Positions 28,220 through 64,000 of a stretch of DNA of 64,000 nucleotides are shown piece by piece. A program made the translations under genes and the position numbers. The stretch lies in NCBI GenBank assembly GCA_034620365.1, contig JAQGEQ010000222.1, positions 34,926 to 98,925 of the forward strand, in the 5' to 3' direction. Source of the stretch: Pegea sp. RAD2-039. Lineage: Eukaryota > Chordata > Thaliacea > Salpida > Salpidae. The notes beneath the pieces are model-generated. The model saw nothing but the letters and a program-made list of their open reading frames with translations. It made no database searches and was not told the origin of the DNA. Position 1 is the stretch's first letter, and each line of letters starts with the position of its first letter.

Positions 28220-30777
28220 TCAATTGTGACTTCTCATATGTTTTTGTAAATGAGAAGGACGCATAAACCCTTTTTTACAAACACTGCAGTTATGTGGAAA
28301 GTTTCTGGTGTGGATGCTGATCTCGTGTTGCTTCAAAGTAGATGATTGCGAAAATGATTTTGAGCAAATCTTACAATGAAACAACTTTTCGCCTGTGTGG
28401 ATTCGTTTGTGTTTTGCAAGACTACATAATTGCCCAAATGTCTTTCCACATTGATTACAAACAAAATCTTTTTGCTTCTGGTGAGTATTACGGATATGTT
28501 GTTGCTTGTAAGATTTCTGGCTAAACGATTTTTCGCAAAGCTCGCATTGATACGTCACCTTTAAGTGAACTGACTCATTATGCCGGTTGAGGTTCTTTTT
28601 TAGGCCAAAGCTTTTTCCACACAAGCGGCAAACAAAATTTTTCAATTTATTGTGGGTTACTTGGTGTTGTTTGAGATGGCATTTATAATCCGCAGAAAAG
28701 TCACAGAGATTGCATGGATACTTTTTATCAGACGGATGTTTTCTTTTAAGATGAACGTCAAAAACTTTCTTATCAGCAAAGATGTCTTCACAAAACTCGC
28801 AGTGATAAAGATCAGCTGCACAAAAATTGTGTTATTACAAAAATTAATTTTATTCTAGTACTAGAAACATTAATAAGATATATTTTTTTACAAATAAATG
28901 GAAAAGTTTAATTTACTTCTTTTGAGTAATTCAGGATTCCTTTTCAGATTCTTGATTTCTTTCTGAGGACTTTTAGCTGTAAAAAGTTACTTGTAGTTAT
29001 TCATAAGATTGTCTTTGTGAATAATAACATTAGTTAACTTTTTCGATTTTTCAATTAAAGTAATTCATAAATAATTTAATATTATTTTACTAAATAAATA
29101 TCTTCTAACTTTTGTTTTCATCTTTCGGAGCATCTTCTAAATCTTCATGTTCATTATCAAGAACATTTTCAAGCATTTCTTCATTTTCACCTGCAGTATC
29201 CTCATTGTCATCTCTATCACCATCACCAAGAGCGTTCTTCATTTGATCTTCATCTTCACAACCATCCAGAGTATTCTCAATGTGATCCTTATTTCCACCT
29301 TCAAAATTGCAATCATTAACGTCATTTAGGTCTTCATCCTCAAGAACATTTCCATCCAAATTTTCATAATCATTACTTTCAACAACATCTTTAACTAAAT
29401 CTTCATCAACAACATCATCATCAAGTTGTTCTTGGATGACTTCAGGACATTCTGTAACAATAAGATTAATTAAAAAACCTCCAGTGCAAGTTCTATTGGT
29501 CATGTTAAGGGTTTTAATGCTATTTCTTATCAAAACAGATCACTATTATTTAATAATAATATATTATCTATAATGTAAATGGGTTACTATTGGTCATAAA
29601 TATTTTCTTATTTGTGATTACTTATAACACTAGAAACATTATAACTTTAGTTTAGAAGTTGTACTCAGAACAGTTTTACTTTCCAACTTTCTTCTTTTAA
29701 TCTCTGGTTGATTGAAACAACTTTCATATCTACCACAACCTTCACTATCAGATTTTGATCCTTTTAAAACAAATTTGTTGTTTAAATTTAAATATTTTGT
29801 TGAATATAAACTTGTATCACAATTTCTTGATCAGGCAAACATGTTAACAGTCATTAGATTATTAAAAGATTAAAATTATCAAAAACCAGTTTAATAAAAG
29901 ATTTATTAAACACTTCAACAATATTACTTCAAAGGTTTTCTCAGTTCGTTATATTAAACTTCCAATATTAAAATAACTTAGTTATAAAATCAAACACCAA
30001 AAACATAAACAATAAAATCATATATTATAACATCATAAGATCATTTAAAGTTGAAATTTACCTTCTTCAACCAATAAACTAGAAGAATTGAAATCTACTT
30101 TTTGTTTAGGTTGATAATAAATTTGAGTTTCTATTGGTTCTGTCTTGCAAAGCTAGGAAGCAAAAAAGAATCCCAGTAAAATTATACAATCTAGATTATT
30201 TATTTATAAAAGATTAAAAACAAAATCATAAAAAAAATACTAAAACCCTCTAACAAATTATTTTTTATATGTAGAAACAACTAATATTTTGACAAAAAAT
30301 ATAAATAAACAAAATAATGATACTTACAAAGGTTTCAGATGGAGACACAGTGTTTAGGTCTTCTCCTTGACTTGTAGAAGCAACAGGTTCCTTAGATGGA
30401 ATGTCAGAGATGTTATTATCACCATTTGAAGCCACTTTCTTTGAACTATCTCCATTATTTTGAGTTTTTTCTTCATAATATTTTATGATTTTACACTTTA
30501 CATATTGTATTTCTGAAGGACTCCAACTTATGTTATTTTGAAGCCTTTTCATGTTAAACCAGCGCTGAATCAATTTATATGAATAGCCAGAATTTTCAGA
30601 GAGTTTAATTAGTTGTTCTTCTGATGGATATGGGAAAGCACAAAAATAATTCAAAAATTCCAACTCAATAGTGGGAAGAATATAATTATCTGCAGGAGTT
30701 TGATCAGCTACAGCAAAATTATTCTCTTTTAACCACAAATCAGCTGTAATAACTTGATGAATTTCCATTATTATCAA
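28220..30777 (-). CDS. Array gene A: homeodomain-like / acidic / seven C2H2 zinc fingers
   Basis: Exons 30777-30328, 30143-30062, 29451-29110, 28976-28917 and 28815-28220 join in consistent phase (0,1,1,1) to 509 residues without a stop. Residues about 26-85 resemble a homeodomain; helix 3 reads LIQRWFNMKRLQ, with Met where the invariant Asn51 is expected. Exon 3 is an Asp/Glu-rich low-complexity segment. Exon 4 encodes KNLKRNPELLKR. Exon 5 holds seven C2H2 fingers, beginning YHCEFC and YPCNLC, then five classic fingers; one TGEK linker (between fingers 5 and 6) is visible. A nuclear DNA-binding role is inferred from the domains. Targets are unknown. It is the most intact copy together with C. 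Confidence 0.85.
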
Positions 30778-36132: not shown

Positions 36133-38607
36133 TCAATTGCGACTTCTCAGATGTTTTTGTAAATGAAAATGACTCATAAACCCTTTTTTACACACACTGC
36201 AGTTATATGGGAAGTTTCTGGTGTGGATGTTGATCTCGTGTTGCTTCAGAGTAGATAATTGCCCAAATGTCTTTCCACATTGAATACAAACAAAATCTTT
36301 TTGCTTCTGGTGAGTATTACGGATATGTTGTTGCTTGGTAGATTTCCGGCTAAAAGATTTTTCGCAAAGCTCGCATTGATACGTCACCTTTAAGTGAACT
36401 GACTCATTATGTCGGTTGAGATTGCCTTTTAGTCCAAAGCTTTTTCCACACAAGCGACAAATAAAATTGTTCAATTTATTGTGGGTTAATTGGTGTCGTT
36501 CGAGATAGCTTTTATAATCAGCAGAAAAGTCGCATAGATTGCATCGATACTTTTTATTAGACGGATGTTTTCTTTTAAGATGAATTTCAAAAACTTTCTT
36601 ATCAGCAAAAATGTCTTCACAAAACTCGCAGTGATAAAGATCAGCTGCACAATAATTGTTTTATTACAAAAATTAATTTTATTCTAGTACTAGAAACATT
36701 AATAAGATATATTTTTCTTACAAATAATTGGAAAAGTTTAATTTACTTCTTTTTAGTAATTCAGGATTCCTTTTCAGATTCTTGATTTCTTTCTGAGGAC
36801 TTTTAGCTGTAAAAAGTTACTTGTAGTTATTCATAAGATTGTCTTTATGACGAATAACATTAGTTAACTTTTTCGATTTTTTAATTAAAGTAATTCATAA
36901 ATAATTTAATATTATTTTACTAAATAAATATTTTCTAACTTTTATTTTCATCTTTCGTGGCATCTTCTAAATCTTCATTATCATTATCAAGAACATTTTC
37001 AAGCATTTCTTCATTTTCATCTGCAGTATCCTCATTGTCATCTCTATCACCATCACCAAGAGCGTTCTTCATTTGATCTTCATCTTCACAACCATCCAGA
37101 GTATTCTCAATGTGATCCTTATTTCCACCTTCAAAATTGCAATCATTAACGTCATTTAGGTCTTCATCCTCAAGAACATTTCCATCAAAATTTTCATAAT
37201 CACTACTTTCAACAACATCTTTAACTGAATCTTCATCAACAACATCATCATCCAGTTGTTCTTGGATGGCTTCAGGACATTCTGTAACAATAAGATTAAT
37301 TAAAAAACCTCCAGTGCAATTTCTATTGGACATGTTAAGGGTTTTAATGCTATTCCTTATCAAAACAGATCACTATTATTTAATAATAATATATTATCTA
37401 TAATTTAAATGGGTTACTATTAGTCATAAATATTTTTTTTTGTGATTACTTATACCATTACAAACATTATAACTTTAGTTTAGAAGTTGTACTTAGAACA
37501 GTTTTACTTTCCAACTTTCTTCTTTTAATCTCTGGTTGATTGAAACAACTTTCATATCCACCACAACCTTCACTAACAGATTTTGATCCTTTTAAAACAA
37601 ATTTGTTGTTTAAATTTAAATATTTTGTTGAATATAAACTTGTATCACAATTTCTTGGTCAGGCAAACATGTTAACAGTCATTAGATTATTAAAAGATCA
37701 AAATTATAAAAACCAGTTTAATAATAGATTTATCAAACACTTCAACAATATTACTTCAAAGGTTTTCTCAGTTCATTATATTAAACTTCCAATATTAAAA
37801 TAACTTAGTTATAAAACCAAACACCAAAAACATAAACAAACAATAAAATCATATATTATAACATCATAAGATCATTTAAAATTAAAATTTACCTTCTTCA
37901 ACCAATATTCTAGAAGAATTAAAATCTTCTTTTTGTTTAGGTTGATAGAAAACTTGAGTTTCTATTGTTTCTGTCTTAAAAAGCTAGGAGGCAAATAAGA
38001 ATCCCAGTAAAATTATACAATCTAGATTATTTATTTATAAAAGATTAAAAATAAATTCATAAAAAAAGTACTAAAACCATCTAACAAATTATTTTGTTTA
38101 TGTAGAAACAACTAACATTTTGACAATAAATATATATAAACAAAAAAAGATACTTACAAAGGTTTCAGATGAAGATACAGTGTTTATGTCTTCTCCTTGA
38201 CTTGTAGAAGCAACAGGTTCCTTAGATGGAATTTCAGAGATGTTATTATCACCATTTGAAGCCAATTTCCTTAAACTATCTTCAATATTTTTAATTTCTT
38301 CTTCATAATATTTTATGATTTTACACTTTGCATATTGTATTTCTGAAGGACTCCAACTTATGTTATTCTGAAGCCTTTTCATGTTAAACCAACGCTGAAT
38401 CGATTTATATGAATAGCCAGAATTTTCAGAGAGTTTAATTAGTTGATCCTCTGATGGATAAGGGAAAGCACAAAATTGTTGTATAAATTCCAACTCAATA
38501 GTGGGAAGAATAAAATTATCTGCAGGAGTTTGATCATCTACAGCATAATTATTCTCTTCTAACCACAAATCAGCAGTAATAACTTGATGACTTTCCATTA
38601 TTATCAA
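36133..38607 (-). CDS. Array gene B: homeodomain-like / acidic / six-finger paralogue
   Basis: Exons 38607-38158, 37974-37893, 37281-36940, 36806-36747 and 36644-36133 join in frame to 481 residues. Same architecture as gene A, but exon 5 is 84 bases shorter: the first half of finger 5 is fused to the second half of finger 6 (CGKTFGQLSTLKQH), leaving six fingers with the spacing intact. The last zinc ligand of the final finger is Arg instead of His (HLRSRN). Upstream of the gene, the unit jumps into LINE sequence at 39886. It may still be expressed; the loss of a ligand could weaken the last finger. Confidence 0.8.
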
Positions 38608-39885
38608 TTACTAAGTCTGTTTATAAAAGAAATATTAATAAGCTTAACTCAAGTTTAATTGAAAAAGAAGTTTTTCGATATAACTTATATAAACAATTTA
38701 AATTATATTTCAGTTTATTAATGTACATCTAAATATAAAAATGCATAAAAATATCTATAAACAAACTTCAAAATAGAATGAATTATTTTAAAAACATGCT
38801 AAAAAAACATTGAAAATAAAATTCACTGTAATAAACATTTGTTGTAAAAAGCTAAAATTCTTTTTATTAATAAACATCGTGTACGACTGTTTTTTAATGA
38901 TTAGGAAAGCAACTAAAATAATCTGGTAACTTAACCTTTAAAATTTAAGAAATAAAGTTTGGTGATATTATGTAAGATTTAAGCAAATTATTTCAGTAGA
39001 ATAAGAATAAAATAAACTCTTAAATCTTTAAAAATTCAAAATAAATCTTAAAAGGAAATTTTTTATGAAATAAATTGAGAACTATACCAACAGTAAATAA
39101 CTTAGCCAATTTTTCTCCTCTCTTCAATTTAACTTACATTCCTCTGTCTAAGTAGTAAAAGTTTTATTTAAGTGATGCCATTTATTGGTCTATAAACTGC
39201 ACTTGGAGTTTAATAAACTTGTTCTATCAATTTAATCAGATATAAAATAACTAATATCTACAAAAAACAAATTTTTAGACTTATGGATTCAATAACACCA
39301 AAGAAATCGGTGACAAATTGAAAATAAAACAATTATACATTTGAATAAATTAAAACTATTCAAATAGAGAGCTCTATTAAACTACAAAAGTTGCAAATAA
39401 CCAAAGTTATAAAAGTGCTCAAGCCTAGCGTGGATAAGATATTAACATATGCGGTAAAATATTCTACTGTTATTCGTTTTAATTATACTACAAACAACTC
39501 TGAATACACTACCAGAGGCAACAATATGTTCTTTACATAATAATTAAGTGAAAAAAACATTATGAATAAATGATACATTTAAAGAAAGTAGAAAATTGAT
39601 CAGATCTCTTCCTCTTATAGTCAAAAGTATATACTATAAACTTGAATTTGCAAATATACATCTTTAACAACTTTCTCATGCATCAATATTTACTTCTTAA
39701 TGGCTTGTCAACTTTCACTTCAACAACCTGTGGAAAAATTATTTAATAAAAACTCTAAAATCTTCTACCAAAACCAACTAAGCAAAAGTATAAAGAAACT
39801 AGTAACAAGAATGGATTCTCACAGAAGCTGAGTATATGAAACATATACCCAAGTATCAGTGGAATCTAATATCAGGTGTAAAACT
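38608..39885. other. Spacer upstream of gene B
   Basis: Homologous to 53168-54389 and to the start of the A and C spacers. It holds the dispersed repeat core at about 39440-39500. The homology ends abruptly at about 39883, where LINE sequence begins. Confidence 0.55.
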
Positions 39886-41160
39886 CTGAGGCGAGGAAGA
39901 GTTCCACAAATTTGGAAGAAAGCTATTATTGCTCCAACTCATAAAAGGGGTCCCAGAAACACCGTACTTAACTACAGACCAGTTTCACTGACTTCAGTTA
40001 TCTGCAGAACTCAAGAGAATATCATTCACAATCATATGACCAGTCATTTGATAGAGCACCATCTAATATCTGATGTCCAGCATGGCTTTGTGAAACAGAG
40101 ATCTTCCCTCACTCAACATTTCACTTTTTGTAATGAGCTTACAGCCCATTATGAAAGTAATACTCCCTGTGACATCATATACCTCGATATTGCCAAAGCG
40201 TTTGAATCTGTCTCTCACAACAAGCTCTTTTTTGTATTTAAAAACTCATAAATCAACAGGTATATCTTACAGTGAATTGAAGATTACTTATCAGGCAGAA
40301 CCCAACAAACTCGGGTAGAATTTTCTTTATCTACTTCTAGTCAAATCACTAGTGGTGTTCCTCAGGGTTCCGTTCTGGGTCCCCTTCTCTTTTTAATTTT
40401 CATCCAAGACCTCATCAGAAGATTAGTAGCAGTAGATGATGTCAGAGTGTTTGTGTATGCAGATGATATCAAGCTATTATCTTGTAATCCTTCAAAACTT
40501 CAAACTGCACTACACACTGTAGAAAACTGGTCTACGAATTGGCAGCTCAGAATCCAGCTCTTAAAGTCTGAACATTTTCTCGTAAACCAGCTGCAAATTT
40601 ATTGAACCAATACTCCATCAAAGGATTTATTATTCAACGAGTATCTTTGGACCTAGACGTTGGCATTACTCTATCATCTGACTTTAAATGGCGCAATTAT
40701 CTTTCCAAAATCTTTGTAAAATCATTCAACTTTATCTACCGTATTATAAAGACCTCTACTTCTAAGGACGCAGATTTTGTATCAATCTTTTCAAACTTTA
40801 AGTACGTCAAATTCTTGAAAACAATGTTAGTACATGGATGCCATATCAAGTTAATGATATCAAAAAAATTGAGTCTGTTCAGGCCACATTTACGAGATTA
40901 GTATGCAGGAAACTTAATATTAAGTATGACAGTTATAAACATTGTCTCAGTTTCTTCAATTTAGATACTTTGGAAAATCAACGGATTAAATACGACTTAG
41001 TTCTTATTTTTAAAATTATCCACAATTTAATTGACCTTAAATTTGATGACTTCTTTTCCATTAGTACTTCCCTCAAGTTATATCAACTCAGACGACACAC
41101 AGTACACCTTAATGAGCCTATATTACTTGGTACGTTAATTAAAGAAAGTTTTTTATGATT
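39886..41160 (+). mobile_element. 5'-truncated CR1/jockey-type LINE, reverse-transcriptase region (copy 1)
   Basis: Motifs in order are RGRVPQIWKKAIIAPTHKRG, LNYRPVSLTSV, QHGFVKQRSS, YLDIAKAFESV, GVPQGSVLGPLLF and the catalytic YADD box (about 40457-40468), then the C-terminal IESVQATFTRLV and [13 protein letters not shown] stop after FVFKNS and later frame breaks make it non-functional. Copy 2 at 60091-61370 has the same lesions, so the duplication came after the decay. Confidence 0.85.
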
Positions 41161-42653: not shown

Positions 42654-45211
42654 TCAATTGTGACTTCTCAGATGTTTTTTTAAACGAGAAGGACGCATAA
42701 ACCCTTTTTTACAAACACTGCAGTTATATGGGAAGTTTCTGGTGTGGATGATGATCTCGTGTTGCTTCAGAGTAGATGATCGCGAAAATGATTTTGAGCA
42801 AATCTTACAATGAAACAACTTCTCGCCTGTGTGGATTCGTTTGTGTCTTGTAAGACTACATAATTGCCCAAATGTCTTTCCACATTGATTACAAACAAAA
42901 TCTTTTTGTTTCTGGTGAGTATTACGGATATGTTGTTGCTTGCTAGATTTGTGGCTAAACGATTTTTCGCAGAGCTCGCATTGATACGTCACCTTTAAGT
43001 GAACTGACTCATTATGCTTGTTGAGATTGCCTTTTAGTCCAAAGCTTTTTCCACACAAGCGACAATGAAAACTTTTCATTTTATTGTGGGTTACTTGGTG
43101 TCGTTTCAGATAGCATTTATAATCCGCAGAAAAGTCACATAGATTGCATGAAAACTTTTTATTATGCGAATGTTTTCTTTTAAGATGAACTTCAAATACT
43201 TTCTTATCAGCAAAAATGTCTTCACAAAACTCGCAGTGATAAAGATCAGCTGCACAATAATTGTTTTATTACAAAAATTAATTTTATTCTAGTACTAGAA
43301 AAATTACTAAGATATATTTTTTTACAAATAATTGATAAAGTTTAATTTACTTCTTTTGAGTAATTCAGGATTCCTTTTCAGATTCTTGATTTCTTTTTGA
43401 GGACTTTTAGCTGTAAAAAGTTACTTGTAGTTATTCATAAGATTGTCTTTGTGAATAATAACATTAGTTAACTTTTTCGATTTTTCAATTAAAGTAATTC
43501 ATAAATAATTTAGTATTATTTTACTAAATAAATATCTTCTAACTTTTGTTTTCATCTTTCGGGGCATCTTCTAAATCTTCATGTTCATTATCAAGAACAT
43601 TTTCAAGCATTTCTTCATTATCATCTGCAGTATCCTCATTGTCATCTTTATCACCATCACCAAGAGTATTATCAATGTGATCTTCATCATCACATCCATC
43701 CAAAGTATTATCACTGTGATCTTTATTTCCATCTTCAAAATTGCAATCATTAACATCATTTAGGTCTTCATCCTCAATAACATTTCCATCCAAATTTTCA
43801 TTATCATTACTTTCAACAACATCTTTAACTAAATCTTCATCAACAACATCATCATCAAGTAGTTCTTGGATGACTTCAGGACATTCTGTAACAATAAGAT
43901 TAATTAAAAAACCTCCAGTGCAAGTTCTATTGGTCATGTTAAGGGTTTTAATGCTATTTCTTATCAAAACAGATCACTATTATTTAATAATAATATATTG
44001 TCTATAATGTAAATGGGTTTCTATTGGTCATAAATATATTCTTATTTGTGATTACTTATAACACTAGAAACATTATAACTTTAGTTTAGAAGTTGTACAT
44101 AGAACAGTTTTACTTTCCAACTTTCTTCTTTTAATCTCTGGTTGATTGAAACAACTTTCATATCTACCACAACCTTCACTATCAGATTTTGATCCTTTTA
44201 AAACAAATTTGTTGTTTAAATTTAAATATTTTGTTGAATATAAACTTGTATCACAATTTCTTGGTCAGGCAGTAAGATTAACAGTCATTAGATTATTAAA
44301 AGATTAAAATTATCAAAAACCAGTTTAATAAAAGATTTATTAAACACTTCAACAATATTACTTCAAAGGTTTTCTCAGTTCGTTATATTAAACTTCCAAT
44401 ATTAAAATAACTTAGTTATAAAACCAAACACCAAAAACATAAACAATAAAATCATATATTATAACATCATAAGATCATTTAAAATTGAAATTTACCTTCG
44501 TCAACCAATATTCTAGAAGAATTAAAATCTTCTTTTTGTTTAGGTTGATAATAAATTTGAGTTTCTATTGGTTCTGTCTTGCAAAGCTAGGAAGCAAAAA
44601 AGAATCCCAGTAAAATTATACAATCTAGATTATTTATTTATAAAAGATTAAAAACAAAATCATAAAAAAAATACTAAAACCCTCTAACAAATTATTTTTT
44701 ATATGTAGAAACAACTAATATTTTGACAAAAAATATAAATAAACAAAATAATGATACTTACAAAGGTTTCAGATGGAGACACAGTGTTTAGGTCTTCTCC
44801 TTGACTTGTAGAAGCAACAGGTTCCTTAGATGGAATGTCAGAGATCTTATTATCACCATTTGAAGCCACTTTCTTTGAACTATCTCCATTATTTTGTGTT
44901 TTTTCTTCATAATATTTTATGATTTTACACTTGACATATTGTATTTCTGAAGGACTCCAACTTATGTTATTTTGAAGCCTTTTCATGTTAAACCAACGCT
45001 GAATCAATTTATATGAATAGCCAGATTTCTCAGAGAGTTTTATTAGTTGTTCTTCTGATGGATATGGGAAAGCACAAAAATATTTCAAAAATTCCAACTC
45101 AATAGTGGGAAAAATATAATTATCTGCAGGAGTTTGATCAGCTACAGCAAAATTATTCTCTTCTAACCACAAATCAGCTGTAATAACTTGATGAATTTCC
45201 ATTATTATCAA
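42654..45211 (-). CDS. Array gene C: homeodomain-like / acidic / seven-finger paralogue
   Basis: Exons 45211-44762, 44577-44496, 43885-43544, 43410-43351 and 43249-42654 join in frame to 509 residues. The homeodomain-like exon is almost the same as in gene A (helix 3 RWFNMKRLQ). By hand count the fingers differ from gene A at about 22 residues, about 12 of them at helix positions -1 to 6. All zinc ligands of the seven fingers are present. The acidic exon has its own repeat changes (extra Asp and Asn codons). It appears intact. Confidence 0.85.
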
Positions 45212-50606: not shown

Positions 50607-53167
50607 TCAATTGTAACTTCTCAGATGTTTTTGTAAATGAGAAGGACACATAAACCCTTTTTTACAAACACTGCAGTTATGTGGAAAGTTTCTGGTGTGG
50701 ATGCTGATCTCGTGTTGCTTCAGAGTAGATGACGTTGTAAATGATTTTGAGCAAATCTTACAATGAAACAACTTTTCGCCTGTGTGGATTCGTTTGTGTA
50801 CTGTGAGACTACATGATCGCCCAAATGTCTTTCCACATTGATTGCAAACAAAAGCTTTTTGCTTCTGGTGAGTATTACGGATATGTTGCTGCTTGTGAGA
50901 TTTCCGGCTAAAAGATTTTTCGCAAAGCTCGCATTGATACGTCACCTTTAAGTGAACTGACTTATTATGTTGGTTGAGATTGCCTTTTAGTCCAAAGCTT
51001 TTTCCACACAAGCGACAATGAAAATTTTTAACTTTATTGTGGGTTACTTGGTGTTGTTCGAGATAGATTTTATAATCCGCAGAAAAGTCACAGAGATTGC
51101 ATCGATGCTTTTTATTAGACGGATGTTTTCTTTTAAGATGAACTTCAAAAACTTTCTTATCAGCAAAAATGTCTTCACAAAACTCGCAGTGATAAAGATC
51201 AGCTGCACAATAATTGTTTTATTACAAAAATTAATTTTATTCTACTACTAGAAACATTACTAAGATATATTTTTTTACAAATAATTGGAAAAGTTTAATT
51301 TACTTCTTTTGAGTAATTCAGGATTCCTTTTCAGATTCTTGATTTTTTTCTGAGGACTTTTAGCTGTAAAAAGTTACTTTTAGTTATTCATAAGATTGTC
51401 TTTGTGACTAATTACATTAGTTAACTTTTTCGATTTTTCAATTAAAGTAATTCTTAAATAATTTAATATTATTTTACTAAATAAATATCTTCTAACTTTT
51501 GTTTTCATCTTTCGGGGCATCTTCTAAATCTTCATGTTCTTTATCAAAAACATTTTCAACCATTTCTTCATTATCATCTGCAGTATCCTCATTGTCATCT
51601 TTATCACCATCACCAAGAGCGTTCTTCATTTGATCTTCATCATCACAACCATCCACCGTACTATCAATGTGATCTTTAGTTCCATCTTCAAAATTGCAAT
51701 CATTAACGTCATTTAGGTCTTCATCCTCAAGAACATTTCCATCAAAATTTTCATAATCATTACTTTCAACAACATCTTTAACTGAATCTTCATCAACAAC
51801 ATCATCATCCAGTTGTTCTTGGATGGCTTCAGGACATTCTGTAACAATAAGATTAATTAAAAAACCTCCAGTGCAAGTTCTATTGGTCATTTTAAGGGTT
51901 TTAATGCTATTCCTTATCAAAACAGATCACTATTATTTAATAATAATATATTATCTATAATGTAAATGGGTTACTATTGGTCATGAATATTTTCTTATTT
52001 GTGATTACTTATAACACTAGAAACATTATAACTTTAGTTTAGAAGTTGTACTTAAAACAGTTTTACTTTCCAACTTTCTTCTTTTAATCTCTGGTTGATT
52101 GAAACGACTTTCACATCCACCACAACCTTCACTATCAGATTTTGATCCTTTTAAAACAAATTTGTTGTTTAAATTTAAATATTTTGTTGAATATAAACTT
52201 GTATCACAATTTCTTGGTCAGGCAGTAAGATTAACAGTCATTAGATTATTAAAAGATTAAAATTATCAAAAACCAGTTTAATAAAAGATTTATTTAACAC
52301 TTCAACAATATTACTTCAAAGGTTTTCTCAGTTCATTATATTAAACTTCCAATATTACAATAACTTAGTTATAAAACCAAGCACCAAAAACATAAACAAA
52401 CAATAAAATCATATATTATAACATCATAAGATCATTTAAAATTGAAATTTACCTTCGTCAACCAATATTCTAGAAGAATTAAAATCTTCTTTTTGTTTAG
52501 GTTGATAATAAATTTGAGTTTCTATTGGTTCTGTCCTGCAAAGCTAGGAAGCAAAAAAGAATCCCATTAAAATTATACAATCTAGATTATTTATTTATAA
52601 AAGATTAAAAAGAAATTCATAAAAATAATACTAAGACCATCTAACAAATTATTTTTTTATGTAGAAACAACTAACATTTTGACAATAAATATATATAAAC
52701 AAAAAAAAGATACTTACAAAGGTTTCAGATGAAGACACAGTGTTTAGGTATTCTCCCTGACTTGTAGAAGCAACAGGTTCCTTAGATGGAATGTCAGAGA
52801 TGTTATTATTACCATTTGAAGCCACTTTCCTTAAACCATCTCCATTCTTTTGTGTTTTTTCTTCATAATATTTTATGATTTTACACTTTGCATAATGTAT
52901 TTCTGAAGAACTCCAACTTATGTTATTCTGAAGCCTTTTCTTGTTAAACCAACGCTGAATCAATTTATATGAATAGCCAGATTTTTCAGAGAGTTTAATT
53001 AGTTCTTCGTCTGGTGGATAAGGGAAAGCACAAAAATGTTGTATAAATTCCAACTCAATAGTGGGAAGAATATAATTATCTGCAGGAGTTTGATCAGCTA
53101 CAGCAAAATTATTCTCTTCTAACCACAAATCAGCTGTAATAACTTGATGAATTTCCATTATTATCAA
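50607..53167 (-). CDS. Array gene D: paralogue with probable splice and finger lesions
   Basis: Exons by homology: 53167-52718, 52535-52453 (see lesion), 51838-51497, 51363-51304, 51202-50607. Each exon is open, but the exon 2 acceptor, GCAAG|ACAG in A and C, reads GCAGG ACAG here, moving the AG one base upstream. Using it adds a base and leads to a stop inside exon 2; skipping the 82-base exon also shifts the frame. The last finger ends HLRSYN, so its final His ligand is Tyr. Helix 3 of the homeodomain-like part is WFNKKRLQ. It is either a recent pseudogene or spliced in a way I cannot see. Confidence 0.65.
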
Positions 53168-54736
53168 TTACTAAGTCTGTTTATAAAAGAAATATTAATT
53201 AGCTTAACTCAAGTTTAATTGAAAAAGAAGTTTTTCTATATAACTTATATAAACAATTTTAATTATATAATTTATATTTCAGTTTATTAATGTTCATCTA
53301 AATATAAAAATGCATAAAAATATCTATAAACAAACTTCAAAATAGATTGAATTATTTTAAAATCATGCTAAAAAAACATTGAAAATAAAATTCACTAAAA
53401 TAAACATTTGTTATAAAAAGCTAAAATACTTTTTATTAATAAACATCATGTACGACTGTTTTTTAATGATTAAGAAAGCAACTGAAATAATCTGGTAACT
53501 TAACTTTTAAAATTTAACAAATAAAGTTTGGTGATATTATGTAAGATTTAAGCAAAATAATTCAGTAGAACTAGAATAAAATAAACTCTTAAAACTTTAA
53601 AAATTCAAAATAAATCTTAAAAGGAATTTTTTTATGAAATAAATTGAGAACTATACCAACGGTAAATAACGTAGCCAAGTGACGCCATTTATTAGTATAT
53701 AAACTGCACTTGGAGTTTAAATACTTTTTCTATCAATTTAATTAAATATAAAACAACTAATATCTAAAAAAAAACAATTTTTAGACGTATGGATTCAATA
53801 ACACCAAAGAAATCGGTGACAAATTGAAAATAAAACAATTAAACATTTGAATATATAAAAACTATTTTAAGAGAGAGCTCTATTAAACTATAAAAGTTGC
53901 AAATAACCAAAGTCATCAAAGTGCTCAAGCCTAGCTTGGATAAGATATTAACATATGCAGTAAAATATTCTACTGTTATTCGTTGTAAATATACTACAAA
54001 CAACTCTGAATACACTACCAGAGGCAACACCATGTTCTTGACATAATAATTAAGTGAAAAAAACATTATGAATAAATGATACATTTAAGGAAAGTAGAAA
54101 ATTGATCAGATCTGTTCCTCTTATAGTCAAAAGTATCTACTATAAACTTGAATTTGCAAATATACATTTTTAACAACTTTATCATGCATCAATATTTACT
54201 TCTCAATAGCTTGTCAACTTTCACTTCAACAACCTGTGGAACAATTATTCAATAAAAACCCTAAAAATTTTCACCAAAACTAACTAAGCAAAAGTATAAA
54301 GAAACTAGTAACAAGAATGGATTCTCACAGAAGCTGAGGATATGAAACACATACCCAAGTATCAATGGAATCTAATATCAGTTGTAAAAGTTTCTCAGGT
54401 GATGAAAAAGACACAGAAATTGAAGTGACCTGGTAATGACAAAATGTCAAACTTCTGGCTGCAATACCTACTGCTCATAATGTAAGTGCAAACCAACTGA
54501 AAAAATAAGTTTTATGATAGATAGATGATAATATTTTATCATTGATGATATCTAAGCATAAACCACAAGTGATAGTTGCATTGGCAACTTTCTTTAAGTA
54601 GTCTATAACACCTGAAACAGTTTAAGATACCTGAAACTGTGAAAAGACACCAAAAACAGTAAAAAAAACATAAACAGAAACAGTACAAAGATTAAAAACA
54701 TTTTAATAATGTTTAATCTTTAACTTTAATTATCTT

Positions 54737-54845
54737 CATTACTGCCAGTTTTGTGAGAAATATTTGGAAATGAAAGAGTTTTGAAGTTTCATATAAAATG
54801 GAAACACAAAAATAATAAGAAAATGTTTTCCTGCAATATATGCAG
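54737..54845 (+). pseudogene. Inverted zinc-finger remnant D1
   Basis: The plus strand reads HYCQFCEKYLEMKE, then after a one-base frame break KWKHKNNKKMFSCNICSY, matching fingers 1 and the start of finger 2 of the array genes. Confidence 0.65.
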
Positions 54846-55069
54846 TTACAATATAATTCTACATTTCAATAAAATAAAACTGTACATTTAAATAAAAGAA
54901 ATTTATCCATATAAATAATATAAAAACAATAAAAAAAATTTTTTGAGAACTTCTTTCCTTTTCCAACTACTCAAAACAACTGAAGATTTTCGACGCCCCT
55001 TACATTGCTAAATGTCTTAATTACATAAGCGGTAAAATATTTTACTGTTATACATTTCAAACATACGAA

Positions 55070-55216
55070 TTTTTGAAAATGAAAGAGTTTTGAAGTTTCA
55101 TATAAGAAGAAAACACAAAAATGATAAGAAAAATGATTTCCTGCAATATATGCAAATATTCAACTGATTATCCAACCACTTTTAAATTACACCAGTTAAC
55201 CCACAGTGGAAAAAAC
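55070..55216 (+). pseudogene. Inverted zinc-finger remnant D2 with one complete finger
   Basis: Contains a complete C2H2 finger (CNICKYST, then FKLHQLTH; C-x2-C-x12-H-x3-H) preceded by a decayed first-finger end. It corresponds to finger 2 of the array genes (CNLCDFSADY, HLKQHQVTH). Confidence 0.65.
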
Positions 55217-56453
55217 CTTTTAATTGTTTTCACTCTGAATATGAGATGTATATGAATGGACTTGGTGCTTACATATCTTATTGTGTTTATGATAATAACT
55301 TGTTAGATTATATGAAGCAAATTAAATTAAGAATACACGACAGACAATCAAGAATTAATTAAATAATTCTTCATTCAATGTATAAAGTGGTTAGTTAGAG
55401 TTTTCACCATAATTCTAAAGATTTAAAATTAAATAAATATTTTTAATATCAAATAACTTCTTACAAAATAAAATCTTTTTACTTTTAATTATTTAATTTA
55501 TCAATTTATGATTTAGTTTATCTTGTAATATCCGATTTAAAAGTTAAGCAAAATATAGTTTTCTTCACTCTGTTATCTTTGGCTTCACTATCAATAAACA
55601 TTTTGAATGTCCTTAAATATTTTCACTTCTTTAAAATTAATCAACCCTTTATTCTTGAAAAGCAAAAATTATGATTTCATTTTGTTTACAAAAACAAGAA
55701 TATTAATTTGTAAATGAATATGAGGTACAAAATTATATCGGAAAATTATAATTTATATCTTATGATCATGTGTGAAAATGGTGAAATATTTTCTTTATAC
55801 TTTTATTGTTTAAACAAGTGATTTTTTTTCAATCTTTTTAGTTTTGGCTCGCTTCTAATAAGTTTTAACAAAATAAATTCTTCAGTTTTATGCCAAATTT
55901 ATTTAATCTAATCATGCTTCACATAATTAAACTTTAAATGAGTTTATATCGTTTGTTGGTTTGTTGTAAAACTTGTTATGATTCAACCAAATATCTGAGT
56001 AGTTTATAATTATTATTCTAACTATTTATATTTTAATTGTTTAATATTTTTGCTGTTGTGTTTCAAAGTTTTATAAAATAAAGTTACAAATTAGAAATTT
56101 TAAGCAATATTTATCCTTTAAGATTAAATCTTATTAATTTATTTGTATCTCAGACTGAGGGTGCAGATGAAGATGATTATTTGTGTAAATTTTATTTACT
56201 ACATTTAAATAAAATTGCTAATATTTCAAATAAACAATTTTCAATAAAATAAATTTGATTTTGTACAGTTTAGTTTGTAATAAATACAATGAGCTACATT
56301 TAGGTGATTATCCTGTACATGACAAAATGAGTCAAGTTCCATATACCAAAATCAAAATGGCTACTCTCAAATATTTGTTTTGAAATAATTTTAAATTGGA
56401 TTGATTTATTCAATTTGGAAATCTAAAATTTATTTCTTTTTGAAATTGAGGAT

Positions 56454-57050
56454 TTGATGGGACAAGCAAAACTTACCTGCCCAAAAGGGATCAGAGTTGA
56501 TAAATCCTCTATAAGAGGTGGGGGTGAAGGAGTTTGGACAGAAGCTGCTATACCACAAGGTATTGTATTTGGACCATATGAGGGTGAAAAGATTCATCGT
56601 CAGGATGTACAAAAATTGAAACATGTGTATGAAGGAGGATATGCTTGGGAGTTATTGATGTATAACTTCAACATCAATTAGTTTGTAGAAATTTGAAACA
56701 ATTTGGTTTTTTAGATTTACAAGAGATGAAAGTTGTCTCATTATATTGATGAGAAAGATAGAAGATACAGTATTGGCTGAGTTATGTCAATTGTGCAAGG
56801 TGATTAGTTGTTATTTCTACTTTTTGACGAAAGTTTGAGTCATAATTTGTTTTATAAACAAGAACAAAATCTTTTAGCTTTCCAATACAAACAAGCAAAT
56901 TATTATAAAACGTTTAAAAAAAAATTCAGAATTGCTTCTTTGGTACGGGAAGCAATATGCTCAAAATTTGGGCTCGTCAACTACTAATGAGATTCCTCAA
57001 ATGGAGATCACAGAGTTGAAAAGGAACCCAGAATTACTATCAAGAAGTAA
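56454..57050 (+). pseudogene. PRDM9-like PR/SET domain remnant
   Basis: Frame pieces in order are CPKGIRV, GGGEGVW, GIVFGPYEGE and GGYAWE (56454-56655), HYIDEKDRR (56739-56765), YWLSYVNCAR (56771-56799), EQNLLAFQYKQANYYKT (56862-56912) and ELLLWYGKQYAQNLG (56929-56973). These follow PRDM9/PRDM7 order closely (GVW, FGPYEG, YVNCAR, NLVAFQY, ELLVWYG). Frames break at about 56766 and 56913-56928; introns may lie at 56656-56730 and 56800-56833. It ends with EITELKRNPELLSRSK, the same short exon, including the donor, that precedes the zinc fingers in genes A-E. PR/SET domains of this group methylate histone H3; this copy cannot. Confidence 0.85.
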
Positions 57051-57142
57051 ATTGAGATTTTTTGAAGTATTTAAATAAAAACGAATTTGTAAAAAAAAGA
57101 TTTAAAAAAAACGGTAAAAAATAAATAAAAAATTGCAGCAAA

Positions 57143-57800
57143 TTATCTTGCTTTCTTGTGGCGTTCAGGATCAGGCATCTTCCAAACCTGTACTTTATGA
57201 TCTCTTGATAGATTAGAGATTTCATTTGGAGTGAGAAAAATAAATTGAACATTTGGTTGTGTCTTTGCACAACCTAGCAAAACCTCTATAGTCATACGAT
57301 GGTTATCAATATCCATAAAGACATCAAATTCATCCAAACAACGAAGAGGAGTTTACATAATCTTCCATAAAGACATCATAAGACAAACTATACTAAAAGA
57401 ACGCTCACCACCAGAAAGGAACTTCATTTCCTTTCCACTTCCTCCCCCTCTTTGACTGACTTCAAGTTGAAGTAATTTTTTTGTATGATTAAAGTTTGCA
57501 CTTCCTTTCAGATTAAAAGCATCAACGGATTTCATGAAGTTGAAAGTAAATTGTGAAGCTAATATATGTACTAATTTCATTTGTCGACTGAGATTAAATG
57601 ATAAAATTTCTTCAAATTTTTTCAGTTGGTTTGTGCAAATTTGAATCTGACTTCTAGCAGTATGGTAGAGTTCTTTAGCAGTTTTTACTTCTTCCAAACT
57701 CTTGTCGTAATCTCCAAAAGTTTTTTCTCTGTTTTAATGTTTTCTTGAATCGCTGAAATTGTTTTAATGATATCTTCAGTGGGTTCTTCAATACCAGGTC
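57143..57800 (-). pseudogene. SMC6 C-terminal fragment, antisense within the PRDM-like locus
   Basis: Coiled-coil end, then LSGGERSFSIVCLMMSLWKI (ABC signature) and CLDEFDVFMDIDNHRM (Walker B/D-loop), FIFLTP and KMPDPERHKKAR, matching the C-terminal ATPase half of SMC6, the cohesin-like Smc5/6 DNA-repair subunit. A TAA at 57353-57355 interrupts the frame just before CLDEFD, and a one-base shift occurs near 57720. No introns are seen over about 650 bases. It separates the KRNPELL exon (57050) from finger remnants at 57921, all on the plus strand, so it looks inserted. Confidence 0.85.
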
Positions 57801-57920
57801 GCTCTTTAGATACTTGCTAGCAGTGATAGTTGCATTGGTATCTTTCTTTAATAGGTCTATAACACCTGAAACAGTAAATAGATTTAAAAAATATTTGAAT
57901 ATTATTTAATGCTTTAACTT

Positions 57921-58055
57921 TAATTATCTTCATCACTGCCAGTTTTGTGAAGAATTTTTTGGAAATGAAAGAGTTTTGAAGTCTTATATTAAAAAGAAAC
58001 ACAAAAATAATAAGAAAAAGTTTTCCTGCAATATTTGCAGTTATTCGTGGAAGAC
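57921..58055 (+). pseudogene. Zinc-finger remnant D3, downstream of the PR/SET remnant
   Basis: In one frame: HHCQFCEEFFGNERVL, KKKHKNNKKKFSCNICSY. The first His ligand of finger 1 is Tyr. The upstream bases TTATCTTCATCACTGC correspond to the start of exon 5 in gene A. Read with the PR/SET remnant on the same strand it gives the order PR/SET, linker, C2H2, broken by the SMC6 fragment. Confidence 0.7.
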
Positions 58056-58700
58056 AATAGCCTCAAGAAACCTACAAAAGTTTCTGCTGAAGTTGTTTTA
58101 AACTGAATTATTTAAACTCAGTGTTTGAATGATATATAATTTATTTTTTTTTGAAACAAATTATATTAAAAAGTTGTTCGGGCTCAAAAAGAAATTAAAA
58201 TTTTATTTCTTTATATTTGTTAAAGACCCACTGTGATATCAATAAAATCAGTTTACTTATTCTTATTTATTTAATGTTTTGTTCTAAAATTTAAAGAAAA
58301 TAATTTCAAGATTCAGGAATTGTCTTATTTTTTAAAACATTTAAACATTCCTCTATTTTGTAGAAATCAATATCTAGTCTCTATTATTAATTTAGTTTGC
58401 AAATTTAAATTTGACTTCTTGGGCCAATTAACCGAAAGTCCATTTTCACAGTTTGCTAGTAAAATTAAATGAAGATAGTTTGAAGCAATTAAAATCTAAC
58501 TAAACGTTGCAAAATTTTGGTAAAAATATTTTACTTTTAATTTAAATTGTTTAAAAATAAACTGTTACAAGTTGTTTAGAAAATTCTATTTGAATAAGTT
58601 TCAGGTTATAGGTTATATTCTATTTGAGTAAATGCTTATAAGTTGTGATATAGTTATTTATAGGAAGTGATTTGTATGGTATATGTATTGTGATTGGTGA
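58056..58700. other. AT-rich spacer
   Basis: No feature recognised between the finger remnant and the LINE. Confidence 0.35.
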
Positions 58701-61370
58701 CAGTAAAAATCTTTTATGAAAACTATGGTGGATTCACATAAAAGTGGCAAGACCTTACAGTCTACTGTAAATAAAAATCCTGAAAAACCGACTTTACCAT
58801 AGCGAGATTGCAATTGCCGATCCTGCAATAAAATTTACTCTGGTGAAGATGCTGCAATTGAATGCTTAAATGCCTCTCCTGCTTTCATCTCACCTGTAGT
58901 AATCTGAGCAAGAAAATCTATGATATGTTTGATAAAAACCATATGACGCAAACGGGATTTAAATGGTTTTGCATTAAATGTAGAACCATGGCCACAACAG
59001 CTACCTCACCCAATTCTGATGAAAAAATATTATCAGACATCAGCAAATCTATATCTGATGAATTAGTGAAACTTAAATCAGAAATTGCCAAGAGTGATTA
59101 GAAAGTTTTTAGTTTGTCTAAATCAATGGACGAACTGAATGCGTCTAAATGTTTAACTTGAAAAGCGATAATACTAATTCAGCCTTTCTAAGCTTCTTCA
59201 ATACCAATAATCTATCCAAGATGGTAACTTTTCCGACCCAAGTTAGTGGTAATACTTTGGATCTTTTTGTCACATCAAGACCCGAGAACATTATCTGCGT
59301 TGATCAAAAAGAACCTTTTGCTTTGAAATGCGATCACAACATGATTGAAATCGAGCTCCATCAAATTTTTTTTATGAACTTTAAAACTTCAAGCAAAAGG
59401 AATTTTTACTGTGGAAATTATACTGGCATTAACAACTTTTTATCAGATGTTGACTAGATTTATGTTTTTAACTCTTCCGAAGACATCAATACTTATTACT
59501 CAAGGTTTACTAACATCGTTAAAGAGTCAATCAAAAAACTCTTACCTTTTTATAGAATCAACAAAAAACCACATTTACCCAATTAATTAAGGAACTTACA
59601 ACATTTAAAAAACCTTCTATACAAATAAACTAAAACAGACCCTTCCATCAAATTTCCTTACAAAGATCTTTGTATAGTTTACAAGAAATCTATTTCTAAT
59701 TTCTGTTTAGGAAGAGAAAGTGCAGTTTTATTTTCACCTGGCAGAAAAACGTTTTTTGGTTTCATAAATCGCAAGCTTAAGGCGAGATCTCAAATACCTC
59801 CCTTACTTGATAACAGCGACCAGCTTGTGATGGAACCAGAAAATAAATCTGAGTTGCTAAACAATCAATTTATTAACCGATGATGGCAATACTCCTTCTT
59901 TCTCCTACTCCAATATTCATACAAATGTCTTTGAGATGGTAGATCTTGACATAACGGTCGATATGGTATCTAAGGTTATTTCTTCCTTAAAATCATCAGT
60001 TTCCAACACCCCAGATCAGATCCCAGCTTTATTTTTAAGAAAATCTACTCCATCTTTATCACTACCTTTATTGCTTTTATTAACATGACTCTGAGGCGAG
60101 GAAGAGTTCCACAAATTTAGAAGAAAGCTATTATTGCTCCAACTCATAAAAGGGGTCCCAGAAACACCGTACTTAACTACAGACCAGTTTCACTGACTTC
60201 AGTTATCTGCAGAACTCAAGAGAATATCATTCACAATCATATGACCAGTCATTTGATAGAGCACCATCTAATATCTGATGTCCAGCATGGCTTTGTGAAA
60301 CAGAGATCTTCCCTCACTCAACATTTCACTTTTCGTAATGAGCTTACAGCCCATTATGAAAGTAATACTCCCTGTGACATCATATACCTCGATATTGCCA
60401 AAGCGTTTGAATCTGTCTCTCACAACAAGCTCTTTTTTGTATTTAAAAACTCATAAATCAACAGGTATATCTTACAGTGAATTGAAGATTACTTATCAGG
60501 TAGAACCCAACAAACTCGGGTAGAATTTTCTTTATCTACTTCTAGTCAAATCACTAGTGGTGTTCCTCAGGGTTCCGTTCTGGGTCCCCTTCTCTTTTTA
60601 ATTTTCATCCAAGACCTCATCAGAAGATTAGTAGCAGTAGATGATGTCAGAGTGTTTGTGTATGCAGATGATATCAAGCTATTATCTTGTAATCCTTCAA
60701 AACTCCAAACTGCACTACACACTGTAGAAAACTGGTCTACGAATTGGCAGCTCAGAATCCAGCTCTTAAAGTCTGAACATTTTCTCGTAAACCAGCTGCA
60801 AATTTATTGAACCAATACTCCATCAAAGGATTTATTATTCAACGAGTATCTTTGGACCTAGACGTTGGCATTACTCTATCATCTGACTTTAAATGGCGCA
60901 ATTATCTTTCCAAAATCTTTGTAAAATCAATCAACTTTATCTACCGTATTATAAAGACCTTTACTTCTAAGGACCCAGATTTTGTATCAATCTTTTCAAA
61001 CTTTAAGTACGTCAAATTCTTGAAAACAATGTTAGTACATGGATGCCATATCAAGTTAATGATATCAAAAAAATTGAGTCTGTTCAGGCCACATTTACGA
61101 GATTAGTATGCAGGAAACGTAATATTAAGTATGACAGTTATAAACATTGTCTCAGTTTCTTCAATTTAGATACTTTGGAAAATCAACGGATTAAATACGA
61201 CTTAGTTCTTATTTTTAAAATTATCCACAATTTAATTGACCTTAAATTTGATGACTTCTTTTCCATTAGTACTTCCCTCAAGTTATATCAACTCAGACGA
61301 CACACAGTACACCTTAATGAGCCTATATTACTTGGTACGTTAATTAAAGAGTTTTTTATGATTTGGCGAA
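58700..61370 (+). mobile_element. Longest LINE copy of the array family (ORF1, endonuclease and RT remnants; copy 2)
   Basis: Order on the plus strand: ORF1 start with a PHD-like finger (CNCRSCNKIYSGEDAAIEC, then CSNLSKK and WFCIKCR, 58790-58985), ORF1 coiled coil (VKLKSEIAKSD), endonuclease C-terminal end (MVTFPTQVSGNTLDLFVTSR and CDHNMIEIEL, 59149-59460), a linker (ISSLKSSVSNTPDQIP), then RT (60091-61370: LNYRPVSL, YLDIAKAFESV, GVPQGSVLGPLLF, YADD). Multiple stops and frameshifts and a missing endonuclease N terminus make it inactive. From 60091 it is nearly identical to 39886-41160. Confidence 0.85.
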
Positions 61371-62135
61371 ATAGTACTTGGATCTAGCTTCTATTTTGAG
61401 GTTCAAATTGGGTCATCTATGAAGCAGCCGCAAAGGAAAAGAATTAAGAGAAGAGCTGATATGACTATCAAGACCATAACTGAGTATTTGTGTGCTACTC
61501 AGCTTAATAAAAGAGCATCTTGACGCTCTAGTTATTAAAAAGTAAAAAAGTTAAAAAAGAGAAAGCAGAAGAGATTCTACCTCAAGGGCAAAAGAACAAA
61601 CAATAAGCACTACTGGATCTAATCAGGGATCAAGAAGTAAGCGAGAGCTTTCTCGCTGTGAAGAAGAGCAGGATGGAAGCAATCACAAATGGAGACGGGA
61701 GAGTTATGAGCGTTTTCCCAAAGATTAATAGTGAACTCCTTATAGATTGTTACAACTACAGCATAAAAAACAAACTGAAGCAAGATACAAACTTTGTAGC
61801 GCTAGAACTTCCTTCCTATACTTTGTATTGTTTCATTTCGCTTGGTTCTTTTATTCAGTATGCAAATTTTTTGGTAGAAGTTTTCCTTTCACCCGCAGTT
61901 ACTTAGTTCGTCAGAGATACAAAATTACTTTTAACAAATTGCAGTATATGGAGAAGAAGAACTTTTTTCCGAGTTTATTTTGTGTAAAAACATTAAATGA
62001 AGTCTGATCCGAAACATTTGAAACTTTTAATAGATCTTCTGCCCCTTAGAATTCCAATTTTTTGTAGAGAGCGCAGGGACTTTTTTGGTTTAGGAAGATG
62101 GGTTTGTAAATTTTTAGATAATGTCCATTAATTCT
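61366..62135 (+). other. Duplicate of the unidentified segment at 41161-41930
   Basis: Same Arg/Ser-rich open frame (61557-61730) and same flanks at 20,205-base spacing, with a few substitutions. Confidence 0.4.
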
Positions 62136-62857: not shown

Positions 62858-64000
62858 TCAATTGTGACTTCTCAGATGTTTTTGTAAATGAAAATGACTC
62901 ATAAACCCTTTTTTACACACACTGCAGTTATATGGGAAGTTTCTGGTGTGGATGTTGATCTCGTGTTGCTTCAGAGTAGATAATTTCCCAAATGTCTTTC
63001 CACATTGAATACAAACAAAATCTTTTTGCTTCTGGTGAGTGTTACGGATATGTTGTTGCTTGGTAGATTTCCGGCTAAAAGATTTTTCGCAAAGCTCGCA
63101 TTGATACGTCACCTTTAAGTGAACTGACTCATTATGTCGGTTGAGATTGCCTTTTAGTCCAAAGCTTTTTCCACACAAGCGACAAATAAAATTGTTCAAT
63201 TTATTGTGGGTTAATTGGTGTCGTTCGAGATAGCTTTTATAATCAGCAGAAAAGTCGCATAGATTGCATCGATACTTTTTATTAGACGGATGTTTTCTTT
63301 TAAGATGAATTTCAAAAACTTTCTTATCAGCAAAAATGTCTTCACAAAACTCGCAGTGATAAAGATCAGCTGCACAATAATTGTTTTATTACAAAAATTA
63401 ATTTTATTCTACTACTAGAAACATTACTAAGATATATTTTTTTACAAATAATTGAAAAAGTTTAATTTACTTCTTTTGAGTAATTCAGGATTCCTTTTCA
63501 GATTCTTGATTTCTTTCTGAGGACTTTTAGCTGTAAAAGTTATTTGTAGTTATTCATAAGATTGTCTTTGTGACTAATTACATTAGCTAACTTTTTCGAT
63601 TTTTTAATTAAAGTAATTCATAAATAATTTAGTATTATTTTACTAAATAAATATCTTCTAACTTTTCTTTTCATCTTTTGGGGCATCTTCTAAATCTTCA
63701 TGTTCATTATCAAGAACATTTTCAAGCATTTCTTCATTTTCACCTGCAGTATCCTCATTGTCATCTCTATCACCATCACCAAGAGCGTTCTTCATTTGAT
63801 CTTCATCTTCACAACCATCCAGAGTATTCTCAATGTGATCCTTATTTCCACCTTCAAAATTGCAATCATTAACGTCATTTAGGTCTTCATCCTCAAGAAC
63901 ATTTCCATCAAAATTTTCATAATCATTACTTTCAACAACATCTTTAACTGAATCTTCATCAACAACATCATCATCCAGTTGTTCTTGGATGGCTTCAGGA
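62858..64000 (-). CDS. Array gene E (partial, cut by window end)
   Basis: Visible exons: 63369-62858 (zinc fingers), 63530-63471 (linker), and exon 3 from the window edge down to 63663 (acidic; expected start near 64004). The finger exon has the same 84-base deletion and finger fusion as gene B (CGKTFGKLSTLKQH), but the final His is retained (HLRSHN). Homeodomain-like exons 1-2 would lie beyond 64000. By position it corresponds to gene C, yet its finger exon and 3' flank match B, so it is a mosaic. Confidence 0.75.

Follow-up and report, generated by a model that had tools for sequence, protein, structure and literature searches.

A PRDM9 pseudogene among homeodomain-like–zinc finger genes that share the 3′ half of PRDM9 in the salp Pegea sp.

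Alignment gives good support to the view that array genes in a 64,000-nucleotide stretch of the Pegea sp. RAD2-039 genome (the window; contig JAQGEQ010000222.1) carry the 3′ half of PRDM9 behind a homeodomain-like and an acidic part, and a PRDM9 pseudogene lies among them. It is very likely that a TALE-like homeodomain gene captured a duplicated 3′ part of PRDM9 and that the product was then amplified. The fuller account, which adds a regulatory role for the chimeras and takes the window relic to be a dead PRDM9 copy, is our best explanation and is probable as a whole.

The window region 56454–58055 was compared with the whole genome (105.7 Mb, 387 contigs). The relic occupies positions 56043–57104 on the plus strand and aligns at 86% over 1086 bp (1088 bits) to an intact PRDM9-like gene, L029; it also aligns at ~90% over 966–967 bp to six PRDM9-like loci. 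It comprises relics of an upstream exon, a zinc knuckle, three PR/SET exons, the linker and the start of an intron, and within its alignment to PRDM9 we found neither an SSXRD-like exon nor fingers of its own. The first PR/SET exon relic lies in a still-open frame (56427–56681, plus strand) that matches Pfam PRDM2_PR with 33.3 bits against a cut-off of 27 (E 4.6e-8), human PRDM9 being its top match among solved structures in the PDB (E 5.8e-7). The last PR/SET exon relic ends 3′ in the linker ELKRNPELLSR and a donor (56994–57053, plus strand), 80% identical to the array linker exon (E 5e-9) and placed inside the stretch aligned to PRDM9. This bears out the initial annotation, which had described a plus-strand PR/SET remnant ending in ELKRNPELLSRSK with a GTAAAT donor as in array exon 4. 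The remnant had been made to start at 56454; it is real, but it begins ~400 bp earlier and includes the zinc-knuckle exon. Read by eye, the knuckle has lost two of its cysteines to substitution, and a frameshift in the second PR/SET exon leads to a stop. The window relic is a PRDM9 pseudogene, without an open coding frame. A reading of the relic as the array genes' own 3′ end was rejected, since it lies on the opposite strand and the array genes of the window carry their own 3′ ends.

Downstream, the locus is interrupted on the minus strand by an SMC6-like gene fragment at ~57115–57817, a span taken from the repeated piece. Residues 5–125 of 126 match SMC6 (E 9.9e-10), and Pfam gave nothing above a cut-off on this interruption. 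Parts of the fragment are repeated at 91–94% on contigs C35, C247, C253, C87 and C39, with or without an adjoining PRDM9 relic. Three C2H2 finger relics, all on the plus strand, surround the PRDM9 relic: one beyond the interruption (57927–58062, 83.5% to C6_732k, a gene of a third, intermediate homeodomain–finger type) and two on the other side (54733–54842, 84.7%; 55068–55237, 81.2% over 170 bp). Taken together they are at 81–85% to C6_732k versus 63–75% to the PRDM9 and array sequences compared, with one secondary short piece at 67%; for the relic at 57927–58062 the corresponding values are 72–75% to four array sequences and 69–73% to two PRDM9 sequences compared. All three are homologous both to array exon 5 and to PRDM9 fingers, and they are probably not the fingers of the PRDM9 relic. 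That the relic beyond the interruption was its own finger exon was considered and rejected: it is at 83% to the third type and 69–73% to PRDM9, while the PR/SET part is at ~90% to PRDM9. The homology to array exon 5 claimed for the remnants after the interruption thus stands, but they group with the third homeodomain–finger type, and the claim was right at family level only. Because the fingers are nearest to C6_732k while the PR/SET part is nearest to PRDM9, the locus is, on these alignments, a composite: a fingerless PRDM9 relic among relics of the third homeodomain–finger type.

The relic locus is not unique: among the loci compared, four hold it at 97.6–99.3% over its full length and two at 93–95% in two pieces. 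Fifteen PRDM9 relic places were set against the array exons entered: 12 are no more than 10 kb from one, two lie ~25 and ~64 kb away on the same contigs, and one (on C108, a weak match with E 0.001) is on a contig that has none of them. In the window the relic starts ~2.9 kb from the 5′ end of array gene 4. It would be a defunct PRDM9 copy that travelled with the cluster as this was amplified, next to the SMC6 fragment and the third-type finger relics.

A search for an intact PRDM9-like gene elsewhere in the genome had been proposed together with the first reading, and such genes were found, with open PR/SET exons and with the linker as the tail of the last of these. Protein search of the genome gave 20 places and the PF21549 profile 24 exon matches; six loci have all PR/SET exons (three on C67, two on C246 and one on C245), a number that haplotype contigs may inflate. 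L029 (C67:443360–446494), the reference copy, could be spliced from its knuckle through PR/SET and the linker to its seven fingers. Its best match among solved structures (PDB) is human PRDM9 (E 2.1e-44), followed by PRDM11 (2.4e-30), and it matches Pfam PRDM2_PR with E 1e-43. The zinc knuckle DDYLFCDKCNKLHFGDCPVHG aligns to the human PRDM9 chain and was found in all six translations. The PR/SET part is open in every copy, and each has the tyrosine motifs GPYEG, YYKTFKKI and VWYG aligned to human PRDM9; we take these to hold Y276, Y341 and Y357, each number being assigned to its motif by our own count. PMC5519329 gives Y276, Y341 and Y357 as the catalytic tyrosines of PRDM9. Finger exons are open in four copies and frameshifted in the other two. 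In these genes the linker forms the 3′ end of the last PR/SET exon (the WYG-motif exon), then come an intron and a colinear seven-finger exon. On the 5′ side, an upstream exon and the next one scored 79 against human PRDM9 KRAB-A/SSXRD, the maximum of 2000 shuffles being 52 and the human segment being approximate. Pfam KRAB and SSXRD had no match over cut-off at the PRDM9-like loci or genome-wide, where control profiles were silent too. Across the six copies, average identity is 98.6–98.7% for the 5′ block with introns, the PR/SET region and the 3′ flank, and 94.5% for the finger exon. The genome copies thus resemble PRDM9 (Meisetz), a PR/SET zinc-finger histone methyltransferase, in their knuckle, in a PR/SET domain that holds the three tyrosine motifs, in C2H2 fingers whose contact residues vary and perhaps in a KRAB/SSXRD-like upstream part. 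They differ from it in that six PRDM9-like loci stand in one genome.

The array genes of the window lie on the minus strand and follow one order: homeodomain-like exon, two short exons, acidic exon, 60-bp linker exon and finger exon. Array gene 1 (28220–30768), with its 3′ half aligned to PRDM9, has six exons and 536 aa in a model built by splice consensus, on which the array exon models rest: 30768–30328 (homeodomain-like), 30152–30062, 29760–29680, 29451–29110 (acidic), 28976–28917 (linker) and 28815–28220 (seven fingers). Array genes 3 (42654–45202) and 4 (50607–53158) have the same six-exon plan and 536 aa; three of the four window genes with a homeodomain exon therefore splice to frames of this length. 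Array gene 2 (36133–38598) has the homeodomain-like, acidic and linker exons and six fingers, and with exon 2 missed by the pattern used it gave no full frame. Array gene 5 (62858–63526), cut by the window end, retains the linker and a six-finger exon. The two finger exons with six rather than seven fingers (36133–36660 and 62858–63385) differ very little from one another. The linker exon was found in the five window genes and in 28 of the 30 homeodomain loci fetched, four of which are the window's own genes; it was not found in L060 and L069. An array gene of the second group, L103 (C6:1316500–1318700), has a first exon without the homeodomain segment in which both exon ends are kept. Two plus-strand sets of reverse-transcriptase-like frames, nearly identical and by eye LINE-like, stand between array genes (39832–41158 and 60121–61387). 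Long frames at 23900–25210 and 10082–12529 resemble, again by eye, a C-type lectin-like membrane protein and a CLC channel.

TALE homeodomains are marked by a PYP loop. Residues 37–79 of the array homeodomain profile align to PBX1 over 43 residues without a gap (E 2e-5), a likeness to TALE/PBX proteins. The array genes differ from these in that the homeodomain-like exon stays below Pfam cut-offs and has acidic, linker and finger exons after it. Two results here count against our best explanation: the homeodomain-like exon of array gene 1 reaches 22.3 for Pfam Homeobox_KN against a cut-off of 24, and the fold model of the homeodomain exon is poor (mean pLDDT 46, helices at 31–41, 50–60 and 64–78). 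No Pfam match to PR/SET or KRAB was obtained in the homeodomain-like, acidic and finger exons of array gene 1, the KRAB search being empty genome-wide with its control silent too.

At the DNA level, the alignment between array gene 1 and PRDM9 takes in 69 bp of linker at 75% and then 846 bp at 76%, the latter covering the intron end, the seven-finger exon and ~190 bp of 3′ flank. The remainder of the 4-kb stretch, the 5′ half included, could not be aligned to PRDM9, except for a weak AT-rich match (61%, E 4e-5) between the upstream part of array gene 1 and the PRDM9 3′ flank. The shared 3′ half claimed in the initial annotation is upheld by this continuous run of homology from linker through intron end and fingers to 3′ flank. 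The linker–finger exon junction is in the same phase, R|TDL, in both families. Array genes thus share the 3′ half of PRDM9, of which the window relic is a decayed copy, and differ from it in having a homeodomain-like exon in place of the knuckle and PR/SET.

This genome abounds in C2H2 fingers, and the linker by itself is short, so that the likeness could in principle be one common to all C2H2 genes that have an AT-rich linker, with no special descent. Yet the homology extends into the intron and the 3′ flank. Scores of 119 for the 3′ flank, 25 for the linker and 25 for the intron were reached by none of 1000 random windows (maxima 36, 17 and 23), the margin for the intron being small. When the array finger exon was compared with the genome, the matches listed included full-length array-type copies at 68–100%, four PRDM9 finger exons at 61–63% over residues 2–203 of 203, the two frameshifted PRDM9 finger exons at 61–66% over part, and the C6_732k fingers at 56%. 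Beyond family-type copies and fragments, the other C2H2 genes among these matches are far weaker, with ≤49% over part. Generic C2H2 similarity was rejected on both grounds; the reading without special descent appears largely refuted at the DNA level, and we give it hardly any credence. An unplaced fragment at C75:17612 matches the array finger exon at 64% over 85 residues. Many further C2H2 matches in long open frames (~240–640 aa) on C60, C254, C255, C92, C8 and C3 form a separate finger family, at 37–49% to array fingers over part.

The initial annotation left the direction of transfer open, and as far as anatomy allows it can be settled in favour of PRDM9. PRDM9 is likely the donor of the shared 3′ end because its linker is continuous with a catalytic PR/SET exon, while the array linker is a 60-bp exon with its own acceptor. 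A 3′ part of PRDM9, broken off within the last PR/SET exon immediately ahead of the linker, would have been duplicated and placed behind the 5′ exons of a TALE-like homeodomain gene. The product would be a homeodomain/acidic/linker/seven-finger protein without PR/SET, later amplified into several branches.

Further gene types bear on this scheme. The intermediate gene of the third type, at C6:730700–733380 (L101, L100), combines homeodomain-like, acidic and linker exons (ETPQNQIRKLKRNPEVLKR) with a linker start and fingers more PRDM9-like than those of the array genes; its finger exon holds a stop, which counts against our best explanation. L104 (C6:2063500–2067000) combines a homeodomain-like exon with broken PRDM9-like fingers. 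Relatives of the homeodomain half also occur alone, as a single 543-aa frame without finger match (L105, on C32) and at C1:3918768 with no entered finger exon nearby (L106). The phylogeny that had been suggested as a check was run on the fingers: the tree, rooted at its midpoint with no outgroup, sets four PRDM9 rows plus C6_732k apart from 25 array rows with support 98/98. The placement of C6_732k on a long branch is unsure, and this too counts against our best explanation.

In the opposite direction, PRDM9 would have lost its original fingers in this lineage and taken those of a homeodomain–finger family. The array family does exceed the six PRDM9-like loci in size and diversity, and neither homology alone nor a finger tree without an outgroup fixes the direction. 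Such a transfer, however, requires a seam inside the WYG-motif exon that preserves both the frame and the intron; PRDM9 is generally built as a PR/SET domain with C2H2 fingers behind it; and by its fingers and the start of its linker the third gene type stands closer to PRDM9. We regard this reversal as very improbable.

With PRDM9 as the preferred donor, we asked how the two parts are paired across the genome, using 75 of 131 homeodomain matches (weaker, overlapping pieces left out) and 65 of at least 201 finger matches (weak C2H2 and broken fragments near PRDM9 loci left out); haplotype contigs may inflate these counts. An entered finger exon lies downstream on the same strand within 4.5 kb for 40 of the 75 homeodomain matches and for 34 of the 37 strongest ones. 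Conversely, 40 of 59 array-type finger exons among the matches listed are paired with a homeodomain match. Two remainders count against our best explanation: 35 of 75 homeodomain matches, many with stops, have no entered finger exon within 4.5 kb, and 19 of the 59 array-type finger exons among the matches listed have no homeodomain match. Homeodomain-exon matches at 47–66% on C48, C212, C223, C204 and C238, most with stops and none with an entered downstream finger exon, are possibly a decayed finger-free branch.

Variation in the fingers was examined at the DNA-contact columns, finger positions −1, 2, 3 and 6. The array finger rows comprise 20 short loci and 6 further rows, compared with ~59 array-type finger exons counted among the matches listed; the contact tests leave out the two frameshifted PRDM9 copies and two six-finger array genes, and C6_732k was used in the tree only. 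Among the four of six PRDM9 copies with open finger exons, 21/28 contact columns vary against 16/170 others (Fisher p 7e-13). Counted pairwise, PRDM9 contact codons hold 86 nonsynonymous and 0 synonymous-only differences, and other codons 55 and 26. In the array-I group (17 rows) 22/28 contact versus 45/169 other columns vary, and in array-II (6 rows) 23/28 versus 72/169. The contact focus is less sharp in the arrays because other helix positions vary too, for example position 5 in five (array-I) and six (array-II) of seven fingers; position 4 is nearly fixed within each array group. The contact strings of array rows share finger blocks in different combinations, which suggests exchange between copies.

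What the chimeras do is a separate matter. KRAB-ZNF proteins in vertebrates deal with fast-changing targets such as repeats or transposons. By analogy, the chimeras may be sequence-specific DNA-binding regulators of quickly changing targets, for example repeats or transposons, a role to which we give slightly less than an even chance. The fingers would choose the site, and the homeodomain and acidic part would regulate. No writing of H3K4 methylation is expected of the chimeras, because the seven-finger module is kept and PR/SET is absent.

The array could instead be mostly a neutral tandem amplification, possibly inflated by haplotype contigs and without a dedicated function; near-identical copies on different contigs, the many broken copies and the relics copied along with the cassette would fit this. 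We find it somewhat unlikely, given the open 536-aa frames in three of four window genes, a linker exon at 98–100% in 25 of the 28 loci where it matched, and variation that is focused on contact residues. PRDM9 in mammals chooses where chromosomes recombine, and the chimeras might act in meiosis, competing with PRDM9 or modulating it at shared sites, in place of a role in transcription or on repeats. The fingers have the same origin, contact residues vary in both families and a SPO11-type sequence is present in the genome. Against this, no shared set is seen by eye among PRDM9 and array contact strings, and an exon-wise genome search, which could miss one, turned up no ZCWPW1-like reader: the 2 zf-CW and 9 PWWP matches never share a contig. 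A meiotic role is unlikely on this balance. Quite improbable is its extension, in which dozens of diversifying chimeras would bind or shield germ-line recombination sites and conflict with PRDM9 would set the recombination map.

Apart from the regulator role favoured here, the gene structure itself can be set beside known relatives of PRDM9. In PMC8835667, ancestral KRAB is placed in invertebrates, SSX and KZNF genes are related to PRDM9, and a coelacanth KZNF group combines ancestral KRAB with C2H2 fingers, without SSXRD or PR/SET, in more than 200 paralogues. KZNF and SSX genes are likewise families related to parts of PRDM9, but they share its N-terminal KRAB (SSX also SSXRD), whereas the present genes share the C-terminal linker and fingers, with no KRAB recognised. 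Multiple PRDM9 copies are reported for ruminants in the opening of PMC5351255; these are similar as a lineage-specific duplication of PRDM9 and differ in that the title and start of the abstract mention no homeodomain chimera. Prdm9 fingers are reported to undergo concerted evolution in a sea anemone, a gastropod and a polychaete; in the sea anemone, positions −1, 3 and 6 are under positive selection, and the polychaete has three similar sequences, maybe alleles or paralogues (PMC2779102). PMC7237205 instead puts the origin of Prdm9 in jawless vertebrates. Searches of the open-licence literature showed no report of a PRDM9–homeodomain chimera in the titles and abstract starts listed.

Vertebrate KRAB-ZNF and SSX genes share the N-terminal part of PRDM9; here it is the opposite end, the fast-changing finger module, that appears to have been captured and amplified. 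If true, PRDM9 would independently have given rise to a family of transcription factors here, and a single genome would hold the donor, an intermediate, the descendants and the relics. The genes would also provide a setting, apparently outside vertebrates, for asking whether fingers evolve rapidly only where the methyltransferase is present: should chimeras that lack PR/SET do so as well, hotspot erosion alone would be insufficient as an explanation.
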